Source: Thalassomonas viridans (GTDB lineage Bacteria > Pseudomonadota > Gammaproteobacteria > Enterobacterales > Alteromonadaceae). From it: 64,000 bases of DNA. Location of the stretch: positions 6,510,001-6,574,000 of the forward strand of contig NZ_CP059733.1 in the NCBI RefSeq assembly GCF_000948985.2. The letters run 5' to 3'. Position 1 is the stretch's first letter. Each line of letters begins with the position of its first letter. Position numbers and translations under genes: made by a program. Of this stretch, positions 8,768 to 27,275 are shown piece after piece. The notes below the pieces were generated by a model, which saw only the letters and a list, made by a program, of their open reading frames with translations, was not told the origin of the DNA and searched no databases.

Positions 8768-8982
8768 TAACTGGCTCTCTGCTTCCGGTTGATCAAATAT
8801 CCGGGCTGGTTTCCGGTAATTTGATAAAGTATATGATAAAAAAGTGGCAGCATTTTACACGAATATGCCCCGTGTGTAACGGCAGTAGAAAAAAAACTCA
8901 CAGGATTTCTATGGGAATTGCATTATTTAACGGCAAAAAAAAGATATAATGGCGTTTTTTGCAATTGTAATTGGATAATCCC

Positions 8983-9627
8983 TTGTCATCGTCAGCCATT
9001 AATCTACAAAAAGCCACTTTTACCATCAGTGCCCCGGACATTCGCAGTTTACCCGCTGAAGGCGGTATCGAAGTGGCCTTTGCTGGCCGGTCAAACGCAG
9101 GGAAATCCAGCGCCCTCAATACCCTGACCCGGCAAAAGAGCCTGGCCAGAACCAGTAAAACCCCCGGCCGCACCCAACTGATCAATGTCTTTGAAATTGC
9201 CGAAAACAAACGCCTGGTAGACTTGCCCGGCTACGGTTTTGCCAAGGTTCCGATGGAAATGAAAAAGAAATGGCAAAAAGCCCTGGGGGAATACCTGGAA
9301 AAACGCGAAAGCCTTAAGGGTCTGGTGGTGTTGATGGATATCCGCCATCCGCTGAAAGACCTGGATATGGACCTGATCCAGTGGGCCGCCGACTGCAACC
9401 TGCCGGTACTGGCGCTACTAACCAAGGCCGACAAGTTAAAGCAGGGCAAACGCAACAGCGAAGTATTGCAGGTAAGAAAAAAGCTTGCCGCCTTAAATGC
9501 CGACATCCAGGTACTGGCTTTCTCTTCCCTGAAACGCACCGGGGTGGAACAGGCCAACAATGTCATTTGCCAGTGGTTCGAGGATGACTTGGCCGAAGAG
9601 GAAAGCCAGGACGAAATAGAAGCATAA
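8983..9627 (+). CDS. engB: Ribosome biogenesis GTPase EngB (YihA/YsxC)
   Basis: Essential TRAFAC-class GTPase needed for 50S subunit assembly. G1 is [10 protein letters not shown]3 is DLPGYG, G4 is TKAD and G5 is FSSL; the [10 protein letters not shown] segment before G1 is typical. The TTG at 8983 is chosen over a TTG at 8971 because it gives a start (MSSSAINLQ...) of the length usual in related bacteria. Neither has a strong ribosome site. A TATAAT at 8945-8950 may be the -10 element, but no -35 at good spacing was found. It is divergent from the cytochrome genes and is followed by a convergent small-RNA gene. Confidence 0.94.
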
Positions 9628-9754
9628 GCCTCTACTCAATTGCCGCCCGGTAAAAATACCGGCGGCTCCTTAACCACCTGCACACTCCCCTCTGAAGAAG
9701 CTTTCTTTATCCGCGATACAATCAAGTTATCAAATACTACTTTTTAGCAGACAT

Positions 9755-9844
9755 AAAAAAACCGGTGATAAACATCACCGGCGTATTAGCTATGGGGAAA
9801 GCTAGAATATACAAATTATTACAACAGGCGTTCTTTTCGGAACA
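9755..9844 (-). ncRNA. Putative small RNA, copy 1 of 2
   Basis: Predicted ~90-nt transcript on the minus strand, convergent to engB. A promoter stands just upstream, and the 3' end is an intrinsic terminator: stem CCGGTGAT/ATCACCGG (9762-9769 with 9774-9781) and seven T. Inside, a hairpin TAGCT/AGCTA exposes the loop TTCCCCAT, which is complementary to ribosome-binding sites of the ATGGGGAA type. A 5' hairpin GTTC/GAAC is also possible. Positions 9787-9826 form a 40-nt core that recurs at 24002-24041 with three differences. The terminator stem of the other copy has different bases but the same shape. No match to an RNA family was recognised. The start point is inferred from the -10 element. 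Confidence 0.75.
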
Positions 9845-9849
9845 AAGCC

Positions 9850-9879
9850 ATTATAGAGTTGTTACTCTACAAAAGTAAA
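9850..9879 (-). promoter_or_regulatory. Sigma-70 promoter of small RNA copy 1
   Basis: On the minus strand: -35 TTTACT (9874-9879), 18-base spacer, -10 TATAAT (9850-9855). The same two hexamers at the same spacing precede copy 2. Confidence 0.75.
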
Positions 9880-10023
9880 GTACTTACTCTAAAAATATTT
9901 TGAGTTTTACCAAAACTTCCTTATTAGATCCAAACCCTATATTCATGACTATTGTTGCAAATAACTGCGGCTCCTATTGATAATAACTTCCAAAACTAGT
10001 TATCAACTTCTCACAAATCTGAC

Positions 10024-10938
10024 TCAGAATAACTCTGGTACAATCTCTTTTAGCTGGTTATAAACTAATACATTATTATGCTTAATTTGGTCTACTAATT
10101 GATAATGGCTCTTTTCTATAGGGGCGCCATAACCAATAAGCTTTTGGACATAATACACCGCATCATTTTTCACACTATATTTCAATGAAGCATCAAGTGG
10201 GTCAGGTCCATAACGGCTAGGTTTTACGCTTACTCCATGAGTTAGCAAGAAATTAAACATTTCCCTAGATTGAAAAGCCATTAAAGTATAACTAACTGCA
10301 TTTCTCCCTAAATGATCAATTTCATGTAGATTAAGCCCCAACGGTAATAATCGCTTCGTCAATTTCACATTATTTTTTAAGGCCAGAGAATGTATGATTC
10401 CAGGACTAAATTGAGCCCCTTTATTTAATAACTGCTCTATGATTTCAAAAGGAGCATTATTAGTGATCGCTTGCAGTAAAGCTAAATCCAACACTTTTGG
10501 ATCTATATCCTCTAATGGCGTTATTGTCTCTACAAAGTTATCCCACTCATGATTTGCAGCAGTTTTAAAAAGCCCTGTCATTTGAGCAGTCATTTTTTCC
10601 ATCTCATCAGCAGACAAACTTTGCTCTGTTACTTGTTTCCTATTTTCTAGAGCCTGTTTTTTCAATTCATCTTTTAATCGCTTTAGATACAACTCTTTTT
10701 GTTCAATATTGAAGTCACTTTCAGATGAAAACTGGCCACTAGACATTACTACAATATCTGCATCATTTTTTATAAGGTTATCTTGTTTACGTATCTCTAC
10801 ACTTTCATTTGGAAGATCTACCACTTGCTGAAAATCATATTTGTTTTCCACACTATCATCACTTTTAAATGATTTAGTATTATAAAAAATCAATAAGACA
10901 ACACTTGCAATGACTATAAAAATTAAAAACTTTTTCAT
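10024..10938 (-). CDS. Ankyrin-like repeat protein with N-terminal membrane anchor
   Basis: A 304-residue protein with a single N-terminal hydrophobic helix (FLIFIVIASVVLLIFY), probably an uncleaved anchor or signal. A polar, partly coiled region (~75-125, rich in K, E, Q) leads to degenerate ankyrin-type repeats from about residue 150: ALLQAITNNAPFEIIEQLLNKGA, SLALKNNVKLTKRLLPLGLNL, RNAVSYTLMAFQSREMFNFLLTHG and VYYVQKLIGYGAPIE fit the helix-turn-helix spacing, though consensus TPLH is lost. Function unknown; such proteins usually bind other proteins in the periplasm or at the envelope. It is the last gene of a three-gene minus-strand set (from 11944), in AT-rich accessory DNA. Confidence 0.7.
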   Translation of the reverse strand: MKKFLIFIVIASVVLLIFYNTKSFKSDDSVENKYDFQQVVDLPNESVEIRKQDNLIKNDADIVVMSSGQFSSESDFNIEQKELYLKRLKDELKKQALENRKQVTEQSLSADEMEKMTAQMTGLFKTAANHEWDNFVETITPLEDIDPKVLDLALLQAITNNAPFEIIEQLLNKGAQFSPGIIHSLALKNNVKLTKRLLPLGLNLHEIDHLGRNAVSYTLMAFQSREMFNFLLTHGVSVKPSRYGPDPLDASLKYSVKNDAVYYVQKLIGYGAPIEKSHYQLVDQIKHNNVLVYNQLKEIVPELF

Positions 10939-10972
10939 TTTATTAACCTAGAATATTAATTATGATGCCTAA

Positions 10973-11167
10973 TCAATTAGCATCATTGTCATCAAACTTT
11001 TTTCGGGAAGCAATACAACAAGAAAGCACTATATGAAAAATGAAAATATGGGCTGGAAGCTCTATCTCTCCTGAAATATACCAAGAAGAGAAAGCCTGTA
11101 GAGCAACAAAAATGAATAGATACAAAATAAAAAGTTTAAAATTTACTGATTTATATTTAGAAAGCAT
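10973..11167 (-). CDS. Small membrane protein, unknown
   Basis: A 64-residue protein with two hydrophobic segments (LFILYLFIFVALQAF and HIFIFHIVLSCCIA) and a charged tail (KKFDDNDAN). The ATG at 11167 is chosen because AGGAA stands five bases before it; an upstream ATG in the same frame has no such site. It lies 34 bases before the ankyrin-like gene and about 70 after the upstream one, so cotranscription is likely. No family recognised. Confidence 0.5.
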   Translation of the reverse strand: MLSKYKSVNFKLFILYLFIFVALQAFSSWYISGEIELPAHIFIFHIVLSCCIASRKKFDDNDAN

Positions 11168-11239
11168 ATTTTTCCTACTCACAGTTCCATTTTCACAACA
11201 GCACACAGCCCTCATAGTAGAAGGCTGTTGATACTCTAA

Positions 11240-11944
11240 TTAATCACACAAAGCTACAGCTTTAGCATAATCCACATCACATTGGGCTTTAGCATCTGAA
11301 AAAGCTACTAAAGCAGCCCCTTCACACGCCACTGTAGCTGGGGATGGACCAAATCCTAAACATAAGGCTGCTGCCGTGAAATGTAAGCCTTCAGCAACAG
11401 TGACACAATTACCCTTAGCTTCTAAAGCATTAATTTCACATTGCTCTTGTTCATCAATTTCATTTGGCTTAGGTGGGGTAGGCGTTGAGCTACCACCACT
11501 TCCAGATCCGCCAGAGCCACCACTGGTGCTCCCATAATCTTCAGTACTTTCATCAGGCACTCCTTGCCAAGGCTCTGTCGGCGGCCTTTGCCCTACAACA
11601 GGTATATGTTCGGTGGTATCCTCACCTTCCCCTACTTCGCAGTTGGTAATAAGGTTATTCGAACAAGTATTTGCGTTCGCTTTATTAAAGCCTAAACTCC
11701 AGCCCCAGCCGTTTTCCATAGAGGTGGAAACCTGGTGAAAACCTTCTTTATCTTCGTAATAATCTTGGCTTGTTTGGACATTGACATTCCCCATCATCAG
11801 GGCTGCTGCCAATACGGTATTGGAAAGCACCTTAGTGCTCGTTTTGATTGTTTTGTTCAACTTCAATTTCCTTTGAATTTCCGTGTCGATACAATTACTT
11901 CCTAAAATTGCCGGCGCATCATAACGCCTCAAAGAGAAAACCAC
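11240..11944 (-). CDS. Exported Gly/Ser-linker protein, unknown
   Basis: Up to 234 residues, start uncertain. The first ATG is at 11944, but a signal-like segment (KTSTKVLSNTVLAAALMMG) lies at about residue 35-52, and TTG codons near 11860 after an AAAGGA may be the real start. The mature part has a Trp/Asn-rich region, then a flexible linker of Gly/Ser repeats with a Pro/Thr tail (~residues 138-160). The C-terminal domain, rich in alanine, carries six cysteines in three spaced pairs, suggesting a disulfide-bonded helical domain outside the cytoplasm. No family recognised. It begins the minus-strand set leading to the ankyrin-like gene and is divergent from the HTH regulator at 12077. Confidence 0.6.
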   Translation of the reverse strand: MVFSLRRYDAPAILGSNCIDTEIQRKLKLNKTIKTSTKVLSNTVLAAALMMGNVNVQTSQDYYEDKEGFHQVSTSMENGWGWSLGFNKANANTCSNNLITNCEVGEGEDTTEHIPVVGQRPPTEPWQGVPDESTEDYGSTSGGSGGSGSGGSSTPTPPKPNEIDEQEQCEINALEAKGNCVTVAEGLHFTAAALCLGFGPSPATVACEGAALVAFSDAKAQCDVDYAKAVALCD

Positions 11945-11981
11945 AATTATTTAACATTACATGGCATTACACTGGCTAAAC

Positions 11982-11995
11982 ATCACAATTGTGAT
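11982..11995. promoter_or_regulatory. 14-bp perfect palindrome, possible operator
   Basis: ATCACAATTGTGAT is a perfect palindrome in the divergent intergenic region between the exported protein gene and the XRE-type regulator gene, 81 bases before the regulator start. Position and symmetry suit a dimeric repressor site such as one for the HTH protein itself; this is inference. Confidence 0.45.
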
Positions 11996-12076
11996 TTAAG
12001 ATTTTTGCTTTATACCGGGTTTCCTTTAACATTCCCCTGTATTCTTACGGAATAATAACAAGTAAAGGAATTATTA

Positions 12077-12433
12077 ATGTTAGAAGTTTACATTTCTGGT
12101 GAAGACTTGCGCAGAATGCGCTTGAGCCGCAACCTAACCACCGCCGAAATGGCAGAAATCATCGGGGTTTCCCGAATCACATACGAAAGCTATGAATCAG
12201 GCAAGACCAAAATAGAATTAAACGCCGGTCTGCAATTAAGCGAGCACTGCGGCATAGATGTCTCCCCTATTAAAAATCAGGTATTAGAGCTAAAAAATCT
12301 ATTCAGTCAATATAAGTACAAGGACCTTGATGATGAAACCAAACCAAACTCGCGCCGCGCATCTAAAAAGAAAAATCACCTCAAGCAACAAATACGAGTT
12401 AAAAATGCCGAACCTCACAAAAGCGGAGCTTGA
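12077..12433 (+). CDS. XRE-family HTH transcriptional regulator
   Basis: A 118-residue protein. Residues ~8-65 form a Cro/C1-type helix-turn-helix: LRRMRLSRNLTTAEMAEIIGVSRITYESYESGKTKI, with the recognition helix at GVSRITYESYE. The last ~40 residues are lysine/arginine-rich and low in complexity; there the gene overlaps, in another frame, the start of the repeat-peptide gene by ~100 bases. AAAGGAATTATTA just before the ATG supports this start. Likely controls the downstream peptide gene, the divergent set, or itself. It opens a plus-strand operon with the repeat peptide and a membrane protein. Confidence 0.8.
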   Translation: MLEVYISGEDLRRMRLSRNLTTAEMAEIIGVSRITYESYESGKTKIELNAGLQLSEHCGIDVSPIKNQVLELKNLFSQYKYKDLDDETKPNSRRASKKKNHLKQQIRVKNAEPHKSGA

Positions 12434-12824
12434 TTCTATTAATGGTGGTTCTGGTGGATATAAAGGCCCAGACCCTAAAACACTAACGATTAATGATTTA
12501 AAAAGTGTTATTGGTGGTAGTTCAGGACAAAAAGGTGTTGATCCTGAAGCATTGTCTATTGATATTCTGAAAAAGGTTAGCGGAGGTTCTGGTGGTGGTA
12601 AAGGTGTCCATCCAGCAACGCTGTCTATTGATATTCTGAAAAAAGTTAACGGTGGTTCAGGTGGTCATAAGGGGCCAGATCCTAAAGCACTATCTGTTAA
12701 TGATCTGAAAAAGGTTAATGGTGGCTCTGGTGGATATAAAGGCGTAGACCCTAAAGTAGCGGCTTTTATAGCTCCTATGGCGGATAGCTTTGCTCCAATT
12801 AAAAAAGAGGATACAACCCCGTAA
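12333..12824 (+). CDS. Repeat peptide with five double-glycine leader-like units
   Basis: A 163-residue protein made mostly of five contiguous 23-residue repeats (residues ~28-142). Each unit has the form L-[ST]-x-x-x-L-x-x-[IV]-x-G-G-S-[GS]-G-x-K-G-x-[DH]-P-x-x. The part up to GG matches the double-glycine processing motif cut by C39 peptidase exporters in bacteriocins and peptide pheromones. If each GG were cut, several near-identical 23-residue peptides would be freed. The tail (AAFIAPMADSFAP...) is unique. The ATG at 12333 follows AAGGA; an internal ATG at 12405, right before the first unit, is an alternative that would give a classical short leader. No exporter gene is nearby. It could instead be a structural repeat. 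Confidence 0.75.
   Translation: MKPNQTRAAHLKRKITSSNKYELKMPNLTKAELDSINGGSGGYKGPDPKTLTINDLKSVIGGSSGQKGVDPEALSIDILKKVSGGSGGGKGVHPATLSIDILKKVNGGSGGHKGPDPKALSVNDLKKVNGGSGGYKGVDPKVAAFIAPMADSFAPIKKEDTTP
12414..12758 (+). repeat. Five in-frame 69-bp tandem repeats
   Basis: Five units of exactly 69 bp (23 codons) run without gaps. Units 3 and 4 share long stretches of bases (for example the codons for LSIDILKK), showing recent duplication, while unit 1 is the most diverged. Every unit keeps the GG-SGG-KG-P frame. Confidence 0.9.
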
Positions 12825-12854
12825 CCGGGACAATATATAAGGAATTAAATTTAC

Positions 12855-13484
12855 ATGGTTAGGTTATTTCAGTTAACCCTCATATTTGCCGGGGTTATAT
12901 ATGCCATTGTCAGCCAAAACCCATTTCATGTGTCAATAATCATTAATGTATCACTATTGATAATTATGCTGATAAGTCGTGACAATATAAACGTGGTTCA
13001 TCTTTGCACGGCATTGTTATTTGTTTACGTTGTTGAAATGCTGGTTTTTCAAAATCTTATAGTAACAAAAAGCGATACCATGAGTTCAATGACAGTTAAT
13101 GCTATTATCTTTTCATTTAATTTCATTACTGATCTGGTGTTGTTCTTCCTGTTGATATTCAGAGCACCTATTACTCGGGCAATACTGGAATCTAAAGGCA
13201 AAGACAGCAGTCATATTTATAAATACAATGCTGAATTAGCCCTTATAAGTTTGATGACTCTTTTCATGGTCGTTGATTTGATGGCGCTTGTGGAAAACTT
13301 CTTAAGGCATTTAGATAAATTTGGAATAACCGGCCCCGTTGCAGAGTTCTTTGCTGATTGGACTTTAGTTTATAACCAATATGAAAACATGAAATTTACA
13401 CTGCTAGGTTTAACTATCCTGCTGGTGTGGATGATGGCGAGTAATATCGGTCAACAACCATACAAGGAACCGGATTCAGCATAA
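12855..13484 (+). CDS. Multi-pass membrane protein, unknown (candidate immunity or accessory)
   Basis: A 209-residue protein with about five to six hydrophobic helices (e.g. LFQLTLIFAGVIYAIVS, VSIIINVSLLIIMLIS, HLCTALLFVYVVEMLVF, IIFSFNFITDLVLFFLLIF, LISLMTLFMVVDLMALV, FTLLGLTILLVWMMAS). No family recognised. It starts 30 bases after the repeat-peptide gene and is followed by a terminator, so it is very likely cotranscribed with that peptide and the HTH regulator. A membrane protein beside a double-glycine peptide fits an immunity or receptor role, as in class II bacteriocin loci, but nothing in the sequence proves it. Confidence 0.65.
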   Translation: MVRLFQLTLIFAGVIYAIVSQNPFHVSIIINVSLLIIMLISRDNINVVHLCTALLFVYVVEMLVFQNLIVTKSDTMSSMTVNAIIFSFNFITDLVLFFLLIFRAPITRAILESKGKDSSHIYKYNAELALISLMTLFMVVDLMALVENFLRHLDKFGITGPVAEFFADWTLVYNQYENMKFTLLGLTILLVWMMASNIGQQPYKEPDSA

Positions 13485-13520
13485 CAACGAACCCCCAATA
13501 ATTTAATAAAAATTAACCCT

Positions 13521-13569
13521 GGAGAGCCATGAAGCTGTACTTAACAGCCTGTCATTGCTCTCCTTTTTT
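13521..13569 (+). terminator. Terminator of the HTH/repeat-peptide operon
   Basis: Outer stem GGAGAGC (13521-13527) / GCTCTCC (13557-13563), inner pairings ATGA/TCAT and GCTGT/ACAGC, then six T (13564-13569). A strong, long intrinsic terminator 36 bases after the membrane-protein stop. Confidence 0.85.
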
Positions 13570-13696
13570 ATAAGTATATGGATGTTATAGGGATATACCA
13601 TCGTCCTTGATGATTCCCACAGAATCCAGCAAAGGAAATGTTGAAAAACTCCAGATCCTGTATGCTCCATGCTTTCGGCGGGAGACTAATCCGCCG

Positions 13697-14194
13697 TTAA
13701 TGCTTGGTTGTCGAATCATTACTGTTTGGGGGCGTATACGACAGGTAAGCAAGATATTCTTTACTGCCGATTCTCTTACGAGCAGCAAGCTTTTTTTGTA
13801 CTGTTGACCGCTTCATAAATTTAGGTCGCCATACAGGTTCATTTTCGTCTGCCAGAGTTTTGAGCATATAGCCCAACTCGGTTAAATGACTGTATATTTC
13901 AGCTTCCTTATCTCCTTGAAAGTAATAGCGTAACTCACTTACCCGGAACACATCATAGTCAAATATTAAACCTTGTAAATTTTGTCTGAGTGTCCCGGGT
14001 TGGGAAATTCCCATACCTAACCCCGCATATATTTCCGCCCGGAACTCTGCCATTGCTTGTGGGCCAAGACCGTGGATACCGGATAGATTTAAGATCTGCT
14101 CAATAGTTAGCTGGGTTTCTTTAGGTTTTTGCGCCTGCTCTTTCAGTTGCTGACGGACTATACCTAATACTCTTTGAATTAATGGCTCATTCAA
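13697..14194 (-). CDS. Unknown protein, divergent paralogue A
   Basis: A 165-residue soluble protein of no recognised family. It is clearly related to the divergently transcribed 165-residue protein at 14348: both share [TI]-EQILN-x-[AS]-GI, an aromatic FR-[VW]-SELRY centre, an EL-x-Y pattern, and a basic C-terminus ending KLAARKRIG (here) or TLATRARIG. The two genes flank a 28-bp perfect inverted repeat. The basic C-terminal helix and the symmetric operator-like repeat suggest a DNA-binding role, but this is inference. It is convergent with the repeat-peptide operon. Confidence 0.6.
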   Translation of the reverse strand: MNEPLIQRVLGIVRQQLKEQAQKPKETQLTIEQILNLSGIHGLGPQAMAEFRAEIYAGLGMGISQPGTLRQNLQGLIFDYDVFRVSELRYYFQGDKEAEIYSHLTELGYMLKTLADENEPVWRPKFMKRSTVQKKLAARKRIGSKEYLAYLSYTPPNSNDSTTKH

Positions 14195-14244
14195 TGGTTC
14201 TTTCTTCCTTGGTTATTGACAGGTGCCCGAGATCTTAAAGAGTT

Positions 14245-14316
14245 AACTTGAAAAAATACTTTTCATTAAAAATTTCTGTTGAGTTTATTTTTTAATGAAA
14301 AGTATTTTTTCAAGTT
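14245..14316. repeat. 28-bp perfect inverted repeat between divergent paralogues
   Basis: Arms 14245-14272 and 14289-14316 are perfect reverse complements (28 of 28) around a 16-base spacer. The left arm begins AACTTGAAAAAATACTTTTC. It lies 50 bases from the start of the minus-strand gene and 31 from that of the plus-strand gene, so it covers the promoter zone of both. There is no T-tract logic for a terminator and no transposase. Confidence 0.95.
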
Positions 14317-14347
14317 GCATCAGTAGACTAGCGCCACAAGTAATCAA

Positions 14348-14845
14348 ATGCAGCAATTGAAATCAATGCACTCGCAAGGATACAAGGAAAAGGAATTGAC
14401 CACCGCCCTAGTTAGGATTGTAAACAACAGAAAGGACGAGAATATCCCTATAGAGCAAATCCTCAATGAAGCAGGCATCACCCGCCCGCCGGTAATAACC
14501 ATTTATGACATGGTAGAAGTTAGGGCGCTGGTTTTGTATGCACTTGGCATTGATAGCTACGGTGCAGAACTACGGGAAGCCCTGATTTACTTCATAGCGG
14601 CAGCCCCTGTATTTCGCTGGTCAGAACTTCGATACGGATGCAGTGATCCTGAGCAGGCCATAGCGGCAATATTGCATGAACTTAAATACATAGGCCAGGT
14701 AATTGAGATTGGCGGGGAACAGGAATATGTGTGGTCTTCCAGGTGGGTGTCCGTTCGCACTATCAGGAAAACATTGGCAACCCGGGCTCGAATAGGTAAC
14801 CCAGCTTTTTTTAAATATTTAAATTACAAACCAGGAGGTAATTGA
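14348..14845 (+). CDS. Unknown protein, divergent paralogue B
   Basis: A 165-residue soluble protein without recognised family, paralogous to the protein at 13697-14194 (shared EQILN-x-AGI, FRWSELRY, ILHELKYIG, TLATRARIG, KYLNYKPG). It heads a plus-strand set: the next gene starts four bases after its stop, with AGGAGGT (14833-14839) inside its 3' end. Together with the inverted repeat it forms a symmetric module, possibly an autoregulated pair. It may equally be part of a degenerate mobile element; no integrase, relaxase or replication gene was seen near it. Confidence 0.6.
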   Translation: MQQLKSMHSQGYKEKELTTALVRIVNNRKDENIPIEQILNEAGITRPPVITIYDMVEVRALVLYALGIDSYGAELREALIYFIAAAPVFRWSELRYGCSDPEQAIAAILHELKYIGQVIEIGGEQEYVWSSRWVSVRTIRKTLATRARIGNPAFFKYLNYKPGGN

Positions 14846-14849
14846 ACAT

Positions 14850-15062
14850 ATGAGTTATAGCCCTGTTGCATCAGCATTAATTGCATTGTCAGCTTGTCAG
14901 GATTCGGCTGTTTTGCAAATAGCTAAAGCCAGTAGCCAAGAAAAGAAAGCCTACCTTCAAAGGCAGGAAGCAAAAATTATGTGCTGCTTTCTGGAGCTGT
15001 TAGGGGAGCTTTCCGTAGACGACCAAGAGCAGGTATTAAAAGTTATAAAGGTAGAAATTTGA
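14850..15062 (+). CDS. Small protein, unknown
   Basis: A 70-residue, largely helical protein (SPVASALIALSACQDSAV at the start; a Gln/Lys/Glu-rich middle; LSVDDQEQVLKVIKVEI at the end). A near-perfect ribosome site AGGAGGT ends ten bases before the ATG. It starts four bases after paralogue B and its stop overlaps the start of the next gene (ATGA), so the three are translationally linked. No family recognised. Confidence 0.65.
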   Translation: MSYSPVASALIALSACQDSAVLQIAKASSQEKKAYLQRQEAKIMCCFLELLGELSVDDQEQVLKVIKVEI

Positions 15063-15370
15063 TGGACTGCCGGGATCGGTGGCTCAAACACCACTGGCGC
15101 AAATGGACATTAGGATTAGTGCTCAGCGGAGCGGTTGCCTGGTACTGGTATCTGTATTCAAAACACTTAAACACGGCAAAACTGGTGTCTGTGCAAATGT
15201 GCCTGATAGAGGGTGAACAGCTAGACCCGTACAGAAGTGACGAATTAATAGAGGTAATAGCTAATCAATTGATAAATAAAAAACTCGCTGGCGATACCTT
15301 AATAGAAAGGGTTGCTTTGAAAAATGCCATCACAGACGGCCTTACATGCGAACCATTAAAACTTTTGTAA
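15062..15370 (+). CDS. Small single-pass membrane protein, unknown
   Basis: A 102-residue protein with a basic N-terminus (RDRWLKHHWRKW), one transmembrane helix (TLGLVLSGAVAWYWYLY) and a ~70-residue likely periplasmic domain with two cysteines (QMCLIEG and LTCEPL). The start at 15062 overlaps the previous stop as ATGA; a longer form from 14981 would run through the previous gene and is less likely. Third gene of the set headed by paralogue B. Confidence 0.62.
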   Translation: MDCRDRWLKHHWRKWTLGLVLSGAVAWYWYLYSKHLNTAKLVSVQMCLIEGEQLDPYRSDELIEVIANQLINKKLAGDTLIERVALKNAITDGLTCEPLKLL

Positions 15371-15382
15371 CAGAGTCAACAT

Positions 15383-15392
15383 AAGGAGGTGA
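15383..15392 (+). other. Orphan perfect Shine-Dalgarno-like site
   Basis: AAGGAGGTGA is complementary to the 16S rRNA 3' end over ten bases, but no start codon with a usable reading frame follows it within normal spacing. May be a relic or a ribosome stand-by site. Confidence 0.5.
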
Positions 15393-15466
15393 CGAACTCA
15401 GTAGATCTTTAGTAGCAACTAGATGAATTTATGTTGTATGAATTTTAAACATCAAATATATATAAA

Positions 15467-15485
15467 CTGATACGGTCAGTATCAG
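15467..15485 (+). promoter_or_regulatory. Hairpin or operator before the exported CxxC protein
   Basis: CTGATAC (15467-15473) and GTATCAG (15479-15485) form a perfect 7-bp inverted repeat with a 5-base centre, 40 bases before the next start codon. Function unknown. Confidence 0.35.
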
Positions 15486-15524
15486 GGAGTTTATAACTAT
15501 TGAATAAACAAGGAATGTATTTAT

Positions 15525-16442
15525 ATGTTAAGAATAATACTAATAACTCTGCTCTCGCTGATAGCTTCAAACCTTTATGCCAAAACATCTAACTTTGATG
15601 TAATGATCCCCTGCCACGGATGCAGTGAATATAAAAAAGAATTGGAGGCGCTAAATGCTGCATTCCATGTGGGACAAACAATCTATGTTGTCGATAATCG
15701 CAATGGGGAATTCTTTATTCATGAGTACTACGTGAATTCTATAGATCCTGACAATATGTCAACTAGCAATGCCAATATGCGGCTAATGACAAAACACATC
15801 CCGGGAAGTGCAGTAAGCCAGGATTTTGCCCGCCATGACGCAATACTAAAAGGCTTAAGTAATAAGATCATCCAGCCTTTTACTATTGATGCCTCAGCAT
15901 TCCCTTCGGCATTCATCGGAACAGACGCCAGTGATTTTGCAGATTGGTTTTCAGCATACCACTACGAAAAGAACAAACAGGATTTTGATCTACTGGATGC
16001 CGAAATGGCTGATGCAGCAGCAACTCTTACTATTGCTGTGAACATTAAAGTGTTCTCAATGAGCTATACCTTCAACAGCACAAATTACCTTGAATATAGC
16101 TTTCCTGACGGCACAAGTGTTCAACTGAAATTTGAAGTAATGAAGAATGCAGTAACCGGTAAATATCATCTGCAATTTAAAGATCCGAAGTTTTTTGATA
16201 GCAAACGAAAACCTATCCCTAAATCAAAAATAACACTGACCGATTACATCAACAACGGCGGTAACCTGGAAGAGAAGGGGGATAATGATGCTATCAAACA
16301 GCATATCAACCTCGTTTTTGAGGGCAACGTACAGTACATTGGTTTTGGTGAAGGGCTTGTTCGCGAAGGTAGTGTTGAGGTTCTTGATTGCCGCATTGAA
16401 ACTATCAGGGGTAAGCAAGTTGTAGCTTGTTATCTACAGTAA
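15525..16442 (+). CDS. Exported protein with N-terminal CxxC motif, unknown
   Basis: A 305-residue protein with a clear signal peptide (MLRIILITLLSLIASNLYA). Just after it stands IPCHGCSEYKKELEAL, a CxxC motif followed by an aromatic-rich stretch ending TIYVVDNRNGEFFIHEY. The rest has no motif I know; the final ~130 residues look beta-rich (YLEYSFPDGTSVQLKFEV, YIGFGEGLVREGSVEVLDC). A similar start, CNYCTTYEQF... followed by FFVVNPKTGVY, occurs in the lipoprotein encoded next, so the two may be distant paralogues. AAGGAATG stands about 13 bases before the ATG. Confidence 0.65.
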   Translation: MLRIILITLLSLIASNLYAKTSNFDVMIPCHGCSEYKKELEALNAAFHVGQTIYVVDNRNGEFFIHEYYVNSIDPDNMSTSNANMRLMTKHIPGSAVSQDFARHDAILKGLSNKIIQPFTIDASAFPSAFIGTDASDFADWFSAYHYEKNKQDFDLLDAEMADAAATLTIAVNIKVFSMSYTFNSTNYLEYSFPDGTSVQLKFEVMKNAVTGKYHLQFKDPKFFDSKRKPIPKSKITLTDYINNGGNLEEKGDNDAIKQHINLVFEGNVQYIGFGEGLVREGSVEVLDCRIETIRGKQVVACYLQ

Positions 16443-23969: not shown

Positions 23970-24059
23970 AAAAAAAAGCCGATAGTCATACTATCGGCCT
24001 ATAGCTATGAGGAAAGCTAGAATATACAAAAAATTACAACAAGCGTTCGCGTTAGGAAC
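23970..24059 (-). ncRNA. Putative small RNA, copy 2 of 2
   Basis: Predicted ~90-nt transcript on the minus strand, downstream of polA and in its direction. Terminator: stem GCCGATAGT/ACTATCGGC (23978-23986 with 23990-23998), 3-base loop, eight T. An internal hairpin TAGCT/AGCTA displays the loop TTCCTCAT, complementary to GAGGAA-type ribosome sites. The 40-nt core (24002-24041) matches copy 1 except at three positions. The terminator stems differ in sequence but keep length and shape. This is the chromosomal place of Spot 42 in enterobacteria, but the sequence does not resemble the Spot 42 I know. Start point inferred from the -10. Confidence 0.78.
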
Positions 24060-24065
24060 AAGTTA

Positions 24066-24095
24066 ATTATAGAGTAAGCACTCTAAGAAAGTAAA
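24066..24095 (-). promoter_or_regulatory. Sigma-70 promoter of small RNA copy 2
   Basis: Minus strand: -35 TTTACT (24090-24095), 18-base spacer, -10 TATAAT (24066-24071), identical in hexamers and spacing to copy 1. Confidence 0.78.
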
Positions 24096-24386
24096 GCAAA
24101 AAATGTAATTTTTTTACAGTTTCTGTTTTTTTATTACAAACCTAAGATAAACAAGGGCTTCAGACTGGATAAAAATATTCTATGCAAGAGAATTACCCAA
24201 AACCACGAACAGAAAAGAAACTATCCGGCATAAAAACGAACGGATATAAATATCACTCGGGATAAACTTTCAGGTTCAGGGGGCTGATTAAGCGATAGCT
24301 CCCGGGGTTGAGACCAAGGATACGTTCACCCGCCGAGGTCATCAAAGGAGGTTAACCCGGGTCTGGTTATGAATATTCTTTGCGGC

Positions 24387-24539: not shown

Positions 24540-27275
24540 TTAGTGGGCCTGATGCCAGTTATCACCTATGCCGGCTTCGGCAATTAGCGGCACATCCAGA
24601 TCCACTGCATTATTCATGATCTCCACCAGTTTGGCGGTGGTTTCCTCAACGATATCCTGATGGATTTCAAATATCAGTTCATCGTGTACCTGCATCGTCA
24701 TCTTGATACGCGGATCATTTTGCTCGCGGATCCAGGCATCCACCGCCAGCATCGCCTTCTTAATAATGTCTGCCGCCGTGCCCTGCATAGGGGCATTGAT
24801 GGCGGCACGTTCGGCGCCTTTTTTACGCATCTGGTTTTTCGATTTAATATCCGGCAGGTACAGGCGGCGGCCAAACAGGGTTTCAACATAGCCCTGCTCG
24901 GTGGCCTGGCTCCGGGTATCTTCCATATAAGTCAGCACGCCGGGATAACGTTCGAAATATTTATCCATATACTGCTGCGCCTGGTGACGGCCAATATCCA
25001 GCTGCTTGGACAAGCCAAAGGCCGACATGCCGTAAATCAGGCCAAAGTTGATGGCCTTGGCGCTGCGGCGCTGATCACTGGTGACCTGGTCCAGATCTAC
25101 GGCAAAAATTTCTGCCGCCGTTGCCCGGTGGACATCACGTCCCTGGGTAAAGGCGCTCACCAGGCCGGGATCTCCCGACAGGTGCGCCATAATGCGTAAT
25201 TCAATCTGCGAATAATCTATGGCCACTATTTTATGGTTTTCAGGTGCGATAAAGGCTTCACGGATCTTACGTCCTTCTTCGCTGCGGATCGGAATGTTCT
25301 GCAGGTTAGGATCTGTGGAAGACAAACGCCCGGTGGCCGCCACCGCCTGGTGGTATGAGGTATGTACCCGGTTGGTTTTTCCCGCCACCATCAACGGCAG
25401 CTTATCCGTATAGGTGGATTTAAGCTTACTCAGGCCGCGGTTTTCCAGGATAATCTTCGGCAGCGGGTAATCCAGTGCCAGCTCCTGTAAGACTTCTTCT
25501 GCGGTAGAAGGGGCTCCCTTAGGGGTTTTCTTGATCACCGGGATTTTCAGTTCTTCAAATAAAATTTGCTGCAGCTGTTTCGGCGATCCCAGGTTAAAGG
25601 ACTTGCCTGCAATATTGTGGGCTTCCACCTCCAGCTCTTCCAGGCGTTTACCCAGTGCCCGGCTTTGCTGGTCCAGCAGGTCGCTGTCAATCAACACCCC
25701 GTGCTGCTCCATTTTCGCCAGTACCGGCATCAGCGGCAATTCAATGTTTTGGTACACGCTCAACTGGTTCGGGGACTTTTCCAGCTGCGGGTAAATAGCC
25801 TGGTGCAGGCGCAGGGTAATGTCGGCATCTTCGGCGGCATAAAAACCCGCCTTTTCGATGTCAATCTGGTTAAAGGTCAGCTGCTTGGCGCCTTTACCGG
25901 CAATCTCTTCAAAATGCATGGTTTTATAACCCAGGTATTTTTCCGCCAGTGCGTCCATATTGTGGCGGGTGGCCACACTGTTTAAACAGTAGGACTCTAT
26001 CATGGTATCAAACGCCACACCCTGCAGCTCAATATCATAATGGGCGAGCACGTTGGCATCGTATTTCAGGTTTTGTCCGACCTTGGCTTTGTTTTTATCT
26101 TCCAGCAAAGGCTTTAACTTGCCCAGCACATAATCTATATCCAGCTGCCCGGGGGCATCTTCATAATCATGCTTTAACGGCACATAAGCGGCTTTACCGA
26201 CCTCGCAGGCAAAAGACAAACCTACCAGCTCGGCTTTCATATAATCTATGCTGGTGGTTTCGGTATCAAAGGCGAAACAATCCGCCTCATCCAATTGCTT
26301 GAGCCAGCTTTCAAAAGCCGCCTGTTCATAAATAATATCGTACTCGGCGCTAATCTCCGGCTCGGCTTCTGCTTCCCCGGCGGCATCCGTACCGTCGCCC
26401 GCTACCTGGCCGGCGGTCAGCTCCGCCAGCAAACGCCGTAATTCAAATTTTTGGTACAGGGCCGTCAGGGCCTCAACATTAGCCTCTTTTGGCCGTAATT
26501 CGGCTACCCCCTGCTCCAGTGCGACATCAAGCTTGATTGTCGCCAGTTCATAAGACAAGGGCAGTTGCTCCAGCGCCGCCCGCAGGTTTTCACCTACTTT
26601 GCCTTTTACCTGATCGGCATTGGCGATAACCCCTTCTAAACTGTCATAGGCGGTCAGCCATTTCACCGCGGTTTTCGGGCCGCATTTCTCCACCCCGGGA
26701 ATGTTATCCACCTTATCTCCCATCAGGGCGAGATAGTCTATGATACGGTCAGGTTTTACCCCGAACTTCTCCAGTACCCCGGCTTCATCCATTTCCACAT
26801 CGGTCATGGTATTGATCAGGCGAACATTCGGGCTCACCAGCTGGGCCATGTCTTTATCGCCGGTAGAAATCACAGTTTCTATACCCAGATCGCAGGCCTG
26901 ACGCGCCAGAGTCCCGATAACGTCATCGGCTTCCACCCCTTCTATCACCAGCAAAGGCAGCCCCATGGCAGTGATAATCTCATGGATAGGGGCTATCTGG
27001 CTGCGCAGATCTTCCGGCATAGGCGGACGGTTGGCCTTATATTCAGGATAAAGATCATTACGGAAGGTTTTTCCTTTGGCGTCAAAAACCACCACGACAT
27101 TGCCCTGCGGATAATCTTTTTTCAGGCTGTTGATCATATTCAACACCCCGGTAATCGCCCCGGTCGGTTGGCCGTCAGCGGTCGATAATGCCTGGAGATA
27201 TGGAACATGATAGGCACGGAATAAATAAGAAGAGCCATCGACGAGAATAAGCGGAGATAATGAAGACGTTGTCAT
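24540..27275 (-). CDS. polA: DNA polymerase I
   Basis: A 911-residue, full-length PolA that fills repair gaps and removes Okazaki primers. The 5'-3' exonuclease domain covers residues ~1-290 (LILVDGSSYLFRAYHV, GVEADDVIGTLA, STGDKDMAQLV). The 3'-5' exonuclease domain keeps its metal ligands (FAFDTETTSIDYM), so proofreading should be active. The polymerase domain has motif A VAIDYSQIELRIMAHLSGD, motif B RRSAKAINFGLIYGMS and motif C MQVHDELIFE. Two perfect DnaA boxes lie upstream. The downstream small-RNA gene shares its direction but has a separate promoter. Confidence 0.98.
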   Translation of the reverse strand: MTTSSLSPLILVDGSSYLFRAYHVPYLQALSTADGQPTGAITGVLNMINSLKKDYPQGNVVVVFDAKGKTFRNDLYPEYKANRPPMPEDLRSQIAPIHEIITAMGLPLLVIEGVEADDVIGTLARQACDLGIETVISTGDKDMAQLVSPNVRLINTMTDVEMDEAGVLEKFGVKPDRIIDYLALMGDKVDNIPGVEKCGPKTAVKWLTAYDSLEGVIANADQVKGKVGENLRAALEQLPLSYELATIKLDVALEQGVAELRPKEANVEALTALYQKFELRRLLAELTAGQVAGDGTDAAGEAEAEPEISAEYDIIYEQAAFESWLKQLDEADCFAFDTETTSIDYMKAELVGLSFACEVGKAAYVPLKHDYEDAPGQLDIDYVLGKLKPLLEDKNKAKVGQNLKYDANVLAHYDIELQGVAFDTMIESYCLNSVATRHNMDALAEKYLGYKTMHFEEIAGKGAKQLTFNQIDIEKAGFYAAEDADITLRLHQAIYPQLEKSPNQLSVYQNIELPLMPVLAKMEQHGVLIDSDLLDQQSRALGKRLEELEVEAHNIAGKSFNLGSPKQLQQILFEELKIPVIKKTPKGAPSTAEEVLQELALDYPLPKIILENRGLSKLKSTYTDKLPLMVAGKTNRVHTSYHQAVAATGRLSSTDPNLQNIPIRSEEGRKIREAFIAPENHKIVAIDYSQIELRIMAHLSGDPGLVSAFTQGRDVHRATAAEIFAVDLDQVTSDQRRSAKAINFGLIYGMSAFGLSKQLDIGRHQAQQYMDKYFERYPGVLTYMEDTRSQATEQGYVETLFGRRLYLPDIKSKNQMRKKGAERAAINAPMQGTAADIIKKAMLAVDAWIREQNDPRIKMTMQVHDELIFEIHQDIVEETTAKLVEIMNNAVDLDVPLIAEAGIGDNWHQAH

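Follow-up and report, generated by a model that had tools for sequence, protein, structure and literature searches.

The window analysed here (a stretch of 64,000 nucleotides from Thalassomonas viridans) holds two paralogous small RNA genes of about 90 nt, both read on the minus strand: an E-type gene (loop CCCC; predicted transcript 9755-9843, its 5' end placed from the -10 box) and a P-type gene (loop CCUC; predicted transcript 23970-24059, 5' end likewise predicted). Both units carry a promoter, a 5' hairpin, a near-invariant core, a seed hairpin with a CCCC or CCUC loop and a covarying terminator. The promoter that an earlier note on this DNA had described reads as claimed in both units, with -35 TTTACT (9874-9879 in E, 24090-24095 in P), an 18-nt spacer and -10 TATAAT (9850-9855 and 24066-24071), and the 40-nt cores at 9787-9826 and 24002-24041 show the three differences that it had counted. 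An AGAGT-N4-ACTCT palindrome lies in the promoter spacer of each gene (9855-9868 and 24071-24084, minus strand); these are the two matches of a pattern scan of the window, against a mean of 0.00 in 100 shuffles. Further upstream, on the same strand, E has a AGAGTAAGTACTTT element at 9877-9890, centred near -41, and P has a HexR-like box, TGTAAAAAAATTACA, at 24104-24118, centred near -52. Among direct repeats of at least 30 nt between 9700 and 24200, a 47-nt repeat of 91% identity links the two units, and the only other is a five-copy array at 12439-12755. By BLAST within its own genome, the second copy matches the first with an E-value of 5.7e-16.

The two copies flank a split polA-engB locus. 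P follows polA (DNA polymerase I; 24540-27275, minus strand; Pfam), its upstream neighbor on the same strand, and E converges with the gene of an engB/yihA-type GTPase (8971-9627, plus strand; Pfam MMR_HSR1, the name engB being given from fold and place). About 14 kb of other genes separates E from P in the window, with ORFs that include a NIT-domain chemoreceptor and an alpha/beta hydrolase (Pfam). This location, which the earlier note missed, tells most about the nature of the pair: according to excerpts of the published reports, the polA-engB interval holds Spot 42 in Escherichia coli and Aliivibrio (PMC3295665) and ErsA in Pseudomonas (PMC8575079). Five of the ORFs between E and P, within 10024-16442, have no Pfam match. 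A small ORF at 12327-12824 encodes repeated LKKV-GGSGG motifs, its DNA holding the five copies of the 12439-12755 array at 69-nt spacing; the GG motifs recall double-glycine leaders.

Both units fold into stable structures (z = -4.3 for E and -3.5 for P, with 0 of 200 shuffles as good for either). The TAGCT/AGCTA hairpins pointed out earlier, with loop TTCCCCAT in E (9787-9804, minus strand) and TTCCTCAT in P (24002-24019, minus strand), are present in both minimum-energy folds. Intrinsic terminators also end both units as described, with stems at 9761-9782 (T run to 9755) and 23978-23998 (T run to 23970), both on the minus strand, but the stems do not differ fully, as had been stated: CCGGTGAT and CCGATAGT have five of eight bases in common. 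Across 33 aligned copies (in an alignment with one misaligned row, G042_E), seven of the nine terminator pairs have changed on both sides, 96.6% of the cells are paired, and the cells with double changes number 48, against a shuffled mean of 12.3. The case that would speak against an RNA gene, an element found in one genome only and without compensation, is not what we observe, since the pair recurs across a family. This recurrence and the compensatory changes across many genomes support a structured RNA gene pair, and the P and E units are almost certainly real sRNA genes. Because it follows polA on that gene's own strand, P could be seen as the mere transcription end of polA, its RNA being the processed 3' end of the polA message; P has its own promoter and an upstream box, however, and the same body occurs far from polA as E, which makes this account very improbable.

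A scan of the window against Rfam at gathering level gave no match, consistent with the earlier statement that no RNA family fits. The best weak matches of the E unit are to P26 (RF00630; 24.3 bits, cut-off 36) and frnS (RF01796; 21.2 bits, cut-off 60), and the P unit has a few unrelated sub-threshold matches; all of these weak matches (P26, frnS, suhB, snoRNAs and others) were rejected as below cut-off. The Spot_42 model (RF00021) gives no match up to an E-value of 10 at either unit, scans of the window and of ten more loci gave no Rfam match for the E-like family, and a search of the literature found no published RNA recognizable as this family. At least two highly similar sRNA genes with a common seed, as in sibling sRNAs, are present here. 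The P/E RNAs are thus a new family, absent from Rfam, within a known kind, the sibling trans-acting sRNAs.

We scanned one genome per species, for 84,980 species, with a pattern of the core. Since the pattern is strict and closer to P than to E, the 51 stretches matched are an undercount. Forty-eight of them belong to Colwellia, Colwelliaceae, Thalassotalea, Thalassomonas, Litorilituus or Cognaticolwellia; the other three are from an "uncultured Alteromonadaceae", an unplaced gammaproteobacterial MAG and a Bdellovibrionota MAG. The last of these (L096) has neither promoter box and was taken as a chance match. A search of relatives with a covariance model had been proposed as a check. A model built from 33 copies (R1) gave matches at E<=0.001 in 10 of the 394 genomes searched in the order, every one in the window's family; in the window it matches 9753-9850 with 103.2 bits and 23970-24065 with 101.2 bits, both copies having been in its training set. 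A wider model (R2), whose training set included the outliers G020 and G038, matched, at E<=0.01, 128 of 395 family genomes, which represent 23 of 52 genera. Genomes with strong R2 matches mostly carry two copies, and some genera match weakly (E-values of about 5e-5 to 0.008); in both large searches, the filters applied miss weak matches. The 33-row alignment (A1) leaves out near-copies from genus mates (L004, L006, L040, L041), a duplicate (the first copy in L033, equal to L010) and L023 and L028. Among 98 relatives, 59 are in the window's family, and 22 of these 59 carry the RNA; two family genomes outside the 22, G020 and G038, have an E-like relative. BLAST found matches in 33 genomes, eleven of them only in the 3' part around the terminator; these eleven (G017, G018, G019, G066, G067, G077, G085, G090, G091, G096, G097) were not counted. 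The BLAST match L023 of G048 is also the terminator part only, the real copy in that genome being L165.

Typed by loop, 39 copies from the 22 genomes comprise 18 P (CCUC) and 21 E (CCCC). Both types occur in 16 of the 22 genomes, with no typed P copy in four and no E copy in two. Most P copies carry a palindrome, TGTAA-N5-TTACA, just upstream of the -35. At a fixed offset, a HexR-like box with at most two mismatches to TGTAATNNNATTACA is present in 16 of 18 P and 2 of 21 E copies (0.18% of shuffles); of the two P copies without it, G032 has a box 10 nt further up. The element TTAGAG(T/C)AA is found in 18 of 21 E copies and in none of the 18 P copies, and the spacer motif AGAG(T/C)-N4-(A/G)CTCTA in 12 of 18 P and 18 of 21 E copies. 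Some E copies show TGTAA-N5-TTAGA remnants at the position of the box. In the 55 copies of the named scan, a set that includes the chance match L096, 44 have a CCTC loop (36 with a box by pattern) and 11 a CCCC loop (one with a box); the exception, L069, combines a P-type box with a CCCC loop. On a tree of the transcripts, P lies on one side of a weakly supported branch (53/75), the E label needs two changes, and the labels are far more clustered than in shuffles. Given the two types and this clustering, the P/E duplication probably predates the genera. In G004, the RNA at the P site is degenerate. L175 (297-382) holds, near polA, a P-type copy in decay, with its HexR box kept and the CCUC loop lost; the same genome has two E-type copies. 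Tandem copies within 600 nt occur three times over in L073 (3764-4316) and as pairs in L059 and L070, where both E-like copies lie between polA and engB; the gene therefore does duplicate in place.

In place and orientation (polA > sRNA ... < engB), P resembles Spot 42 (spf, RF00021): it lies downstream of polA and points towards engB, which converges beyond E. The Spot_42 model matched 31 of the 98 relatives at E<=0.01, eight of them above the cut-off. All 30 loci that we fetched are at polA; the 31st match, in the window's own genome (E-value 0.009), is away from polA and not at either copy. The filters of this search lose weak matches, and it missed ten short forms with GTAGGGTACA, which came to light when we read the DNA that follows polA at 35 other places (29 in the family, 6 elsewhere). 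Short forms of Spot 42 are seen downstream of polA in Alteromonadaceae (L150, L151, L152, L154, L156-L159, L170, L171; L132-L136, L139, L142-L144, L146), as model matches of 81-86 nt or through their start motif alone; they score under the Rfam cut-off or escaped the model search. Spot 42 stands at polA in 24 of the 37 family genomes that do not have the P/E RNA; none is shown in the other 13, which include G020 and G038, with their E-like RNA, and G030, whose stretch was not read. None of the 22 genomes with the P/E RNA has a match to the Spot_42 model at polA, and in 21 of them, those whose polA end could be read, the start motif GTAGGGTACA is absent up to 1500 nt after polA (best matches with 2-4 mismatches). 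A HexR-like box near -50, as in P, precedes Spot 42 in most relatives examined: 29 of the 40 loci have it with at most two mismatches, compared with 1.8% of shuffles, and at 37 of the 40 the best match has its end 41-47 nt upstream of where the Spot 42 transcript starts, close to its position in P. P thus very probably occupies the place of Spot 42. Searching the literature for Spot 42 together with HexR, we found only work on Neisseria.

A second RNA between Spot 42 and engB was found when R2 was run over the 30 Spot 42 loci. Reading the intervals, we observed a hairpin with a CTCCCC loop in 8 of the 30, in four families of the order: the window's family (G019, G044, G047), f6 (G063, G087), f15 (G072, G096) and f20 (G077). 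The seed stems of these E-like RNAs differ and compensate (ATAGC/GCTAT, AAAAGCT/AGCTTTT, TTTAGCTT/GAGCTAAA and ATATTAGCTT/AAGCTAATAT, with TAGCT/AGCTA in Thalassomonas), and all eight loci have TTAGAG(C/T)-N-CTT(T/C)A 88-109 nt before the loop; in the E gene of the window the distance is 92 nt. The four best R2 matches are weak (33.8-38.3 bits), and the remaining scores are lower (G077, 25.9 bits; G063, 19.2; G087, 18.8; G044, 14.3). Since these scores are modest and G020 and G038 were in the training set, several loci are supported by having box, hairpin and place together; the assignment of G077, G063, G087 and G044 rests on motif, box and place. Rfam at gathering level gave one Spot 42 match and nothing else in ten of these loci.

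Eight of the 30 loci hold Spot 42 and an E-like RNA together, so that the E body seems to have existed before Spot 42 was lost; judged from sequence, it is probably also older than P. We suggest that the ancestral interval would have read polA > Spot 42 > E-like RNA < engB. In the line of Colwelliaceae, to which Thalassomonas belongs, a copy of the E gene would have come behind a Spot 42-type promoter, with Spot 42 displaced and lost, and later gene insertions would have driven the two copies apart, to 14 kb here. Against this account, the E-like RNA is present at only the 8 of 30 Spot 42 loci and the P branch is weakly supported. The alternative is that P is Spot 42 itself, changed past recognition, and E its duplicate with the HexR box lost. 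The place, orientation and HexR-like box of P would fit this, as would the core and spacer palindrome common to E and P, the box remnants in some E copies and the two E-like copies between polA and engB in L059 and L070. However, neither copy matches the Spot_42 model up to an E-value of 10, the short forms of Spot 42 retain GTAGGGTACA whereas this motif was not found after polA in pair-bearing genomes, and the E-like RNA stands alongside Spot 42 in the eight loci. That other genomes have an E-like body next to Spot 42 makes a stepwise conversion of Spot 42 to P the less likely course, and we regard this alternative as unlikely.

The box of P resembles the sites predicted for HexR in Vibrio parahaemolyticus, where excerpts of the report give a consensus TGTAATTAAATTACA and sites such as TGAAAAAAAATTACA (PMC11906056); TGAAAAAAAATTACA is exactly the box sequence at the P copy of G015. 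The window's genome (G000) has one HTH_6 gene at E<=1e-5, with the NCBIfam name HexR. A loose pattern of the box finds 47 sites in this genome, against 21 for the reversed control. The fifteen sites that we read all belong to a dispersed palindromic repeat, which many others resemble; eleven of the 47 have a TGTAA half. Besides P, genes could be named at six of the sites with this half. Two sites lie between zwf and hexR and one precedes gapA; gltB and leuA each have one about 300 bp upstream, and a weak one lies past gapA between convergent genes. The strict form TGTAATNNNATTACA occurs once in G000, before gltB. Control of P by HexR is likely, judging from the motif: P would be tuned by HexR, and so to sugar-acid flux, and E by a factor acting at AGAGT-N4-ACTTT near -41. 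HexR bound upstream of a promoter is viewed as activating (PMC11906056), and in Aliivibrio glucose increases Spot 42 (PMC3295665). The dispersed repeat of G000 (e.g., L186-L200) is about 65 nt long, contains CCTATCGGCGTTAGAAAAATGTCATGTAGAATAACTACACGTCCATTTTTCTGCCTTGATAGG, appears MITE-like and has at least 15 copies.

Each RNA of about 90 nt would combine an Hfq-type, U-tailed terminator, a CCYC hairpin loop and an unpaired TTGTTGTA stretch, and, paired with an mRNA at its ribosome-binding site or close by, would block or destabilize that message. Through the C-to-U difference in the loop, P would be shifted to GAGG-type and E to GGGG-type sites. TGTTGTA is present in 33 of 33 rows of A1 (G048 has CGTTGTA), and much of the loop is constant; hfq is present in the genome. 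The constancy of TGTTGTA and the loop, hfq and the U-tailed terminators together argue for pairing with ribosome-binding sites through the loop, which we consider reasonably likely. The presence of hfq and some complementarities to ribosome-binding sites make the Hfq-type, Shine-Dalgarno-pairing role proposed earlier plausible. The rival reading, that the pair mainly titrates a protein such as CsrA or Hfq rather than pairing with mRNAs, is improbable. Short, structured, duplicated RNAs can act in this manner, and the AU-rich linker could bind Hfq; yet the loops do not contain GGA, unlike those of CsrB-type RNAs, and CCYC and TGTTGTA rank with the most constant positions, as seeds would.

In eight genomes, the target pattern GAGGAAAGC-N2-9-ATG has 36 matches and GGGGAAAGC-N2-9-ATG 51, against 4 and 11 for the reversed controls, which ignore the natural Shine-Dalgarno sequence before ATG, so that the counts are inflated. 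When 30 matches per pattern were examined, 15 of the 60 rows started an open frame of at least 60 aa; they represent 14 sites, 12 of the first pattern and 2 of the second. The candidates, catabolic genes among them, include an ExaC-type aldehyde dehydrogenase (scanned in G000, recognized by its start in G001), a TauD-family dioxygenase (scanned in G000, by its start in G003), PutA (G010), an iron-sulphur subunit of aldehyde/xanthine dehydrogenase type (G000), an alpha/beta hydrolase (G000) and, for the second pattern, 3-hydroxyisobutyrate dehydrogenase (G032); several were scanned as 400-residue pieces, with ExaC and PutA below their cut-offs. Having been selected by the search, with duplex energies that have no background set, these candidates are leads only.

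Taken jointly, these lines lead us to lean, on the strength of sequence comparisons, towards a pair of sibling trans-acting sRNAs in which a copy of E displaced Spot 42 in Colwelliaceae, which would act by pairing with ribosome-binding sites and of which P would be tuned by HexR. A broader version seems to us evenly balanced: that a duplicate of its neighbor, placed behind a HexR-type site, displaced Spot 42, one of the best conserved gammaproteobacterial sRNAs, throughout Colwelliaceae; that the siblings, with seeds differing by one base, take two inputs, HexR for P and the AGAGT-box factor for E; and that Spot 42 itself is widely controlled by HexR in addition to CRP. If true, a core sRNA has been replaced by a copy of its neighbor with place and control box kept, so that an sRNA circuit would have been rewired by swapping one RNA body for another. 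In many Alteromonadaceae, the HexR-like box upstream of Spot 42 offers a simple, testable link from sugar-acid flux (KDPG) to Spot 42; this link and the displacement of Spot 42 are what make the pair interesting.

Several known systems resemble the pair in part. Spot 42, the classic RNA of the sugar response, with expression under glucose and CRP control, shares with P and E a terminator-ended RNA of about 100 nt with a likely role in carbon use, but P and E have no match to its Rfam model, another seed hairpin and two copies. VSsrna24 of Aliivibrio salmonicida, as excerpts of PMC3295665 describe it, is like E a second sRNA in the polA-engB interval, downstream of spf, and is reported to be repressed by glucose; it is about 60 nt long, whereas the predicted length of E is about 89 nt, and the region after polA showed no spf here. 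At L121 and L122, Spot 42 loci taken as Vibrio-like, the promoter reads GAACTA...TCATAAT, and R2 gives no match up to an E-value of 1. ErsA of Pseudomonas aeruginosa also lies in the polA-engB interval (PMC5819304, PMC8575079) and is bound by Hfq (PMC8545117); going by its description in excerpts of these sources, it is 132 nt long and sigma22-dependent, whereas P and E have TTTACT-N18-TATAAT instead of a sigma22 (GAACTT-type) promoter. The sibling sRNAs NgncR_162/163 of Neisseria (PMC9973317) are, like P and E, two close copies with three stem-loops, and have metabolic targets and a middle loop that pairs with ribosome-binding sites, as P and E would; Neisseria belongs to another class and its two genes are adjacent, whereas P and E are 14 kb apart with different control boxes. 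At L119 and L120, Spot 42 is followed by a TTAGAGTAATTACTTTA promoter element and then by an RNA body that does not resemble E. In many other genera the interval holds a different second unit with a GAACT-type promoter. It is seen near engB in L149, L158, L166, L169, L132-L136, L139, L142-L144 and L146, has a pyrimidine-rich stretch before its terminator, and is perhaps sigmaE-dependent and VSsrna24- or ErsA-like.
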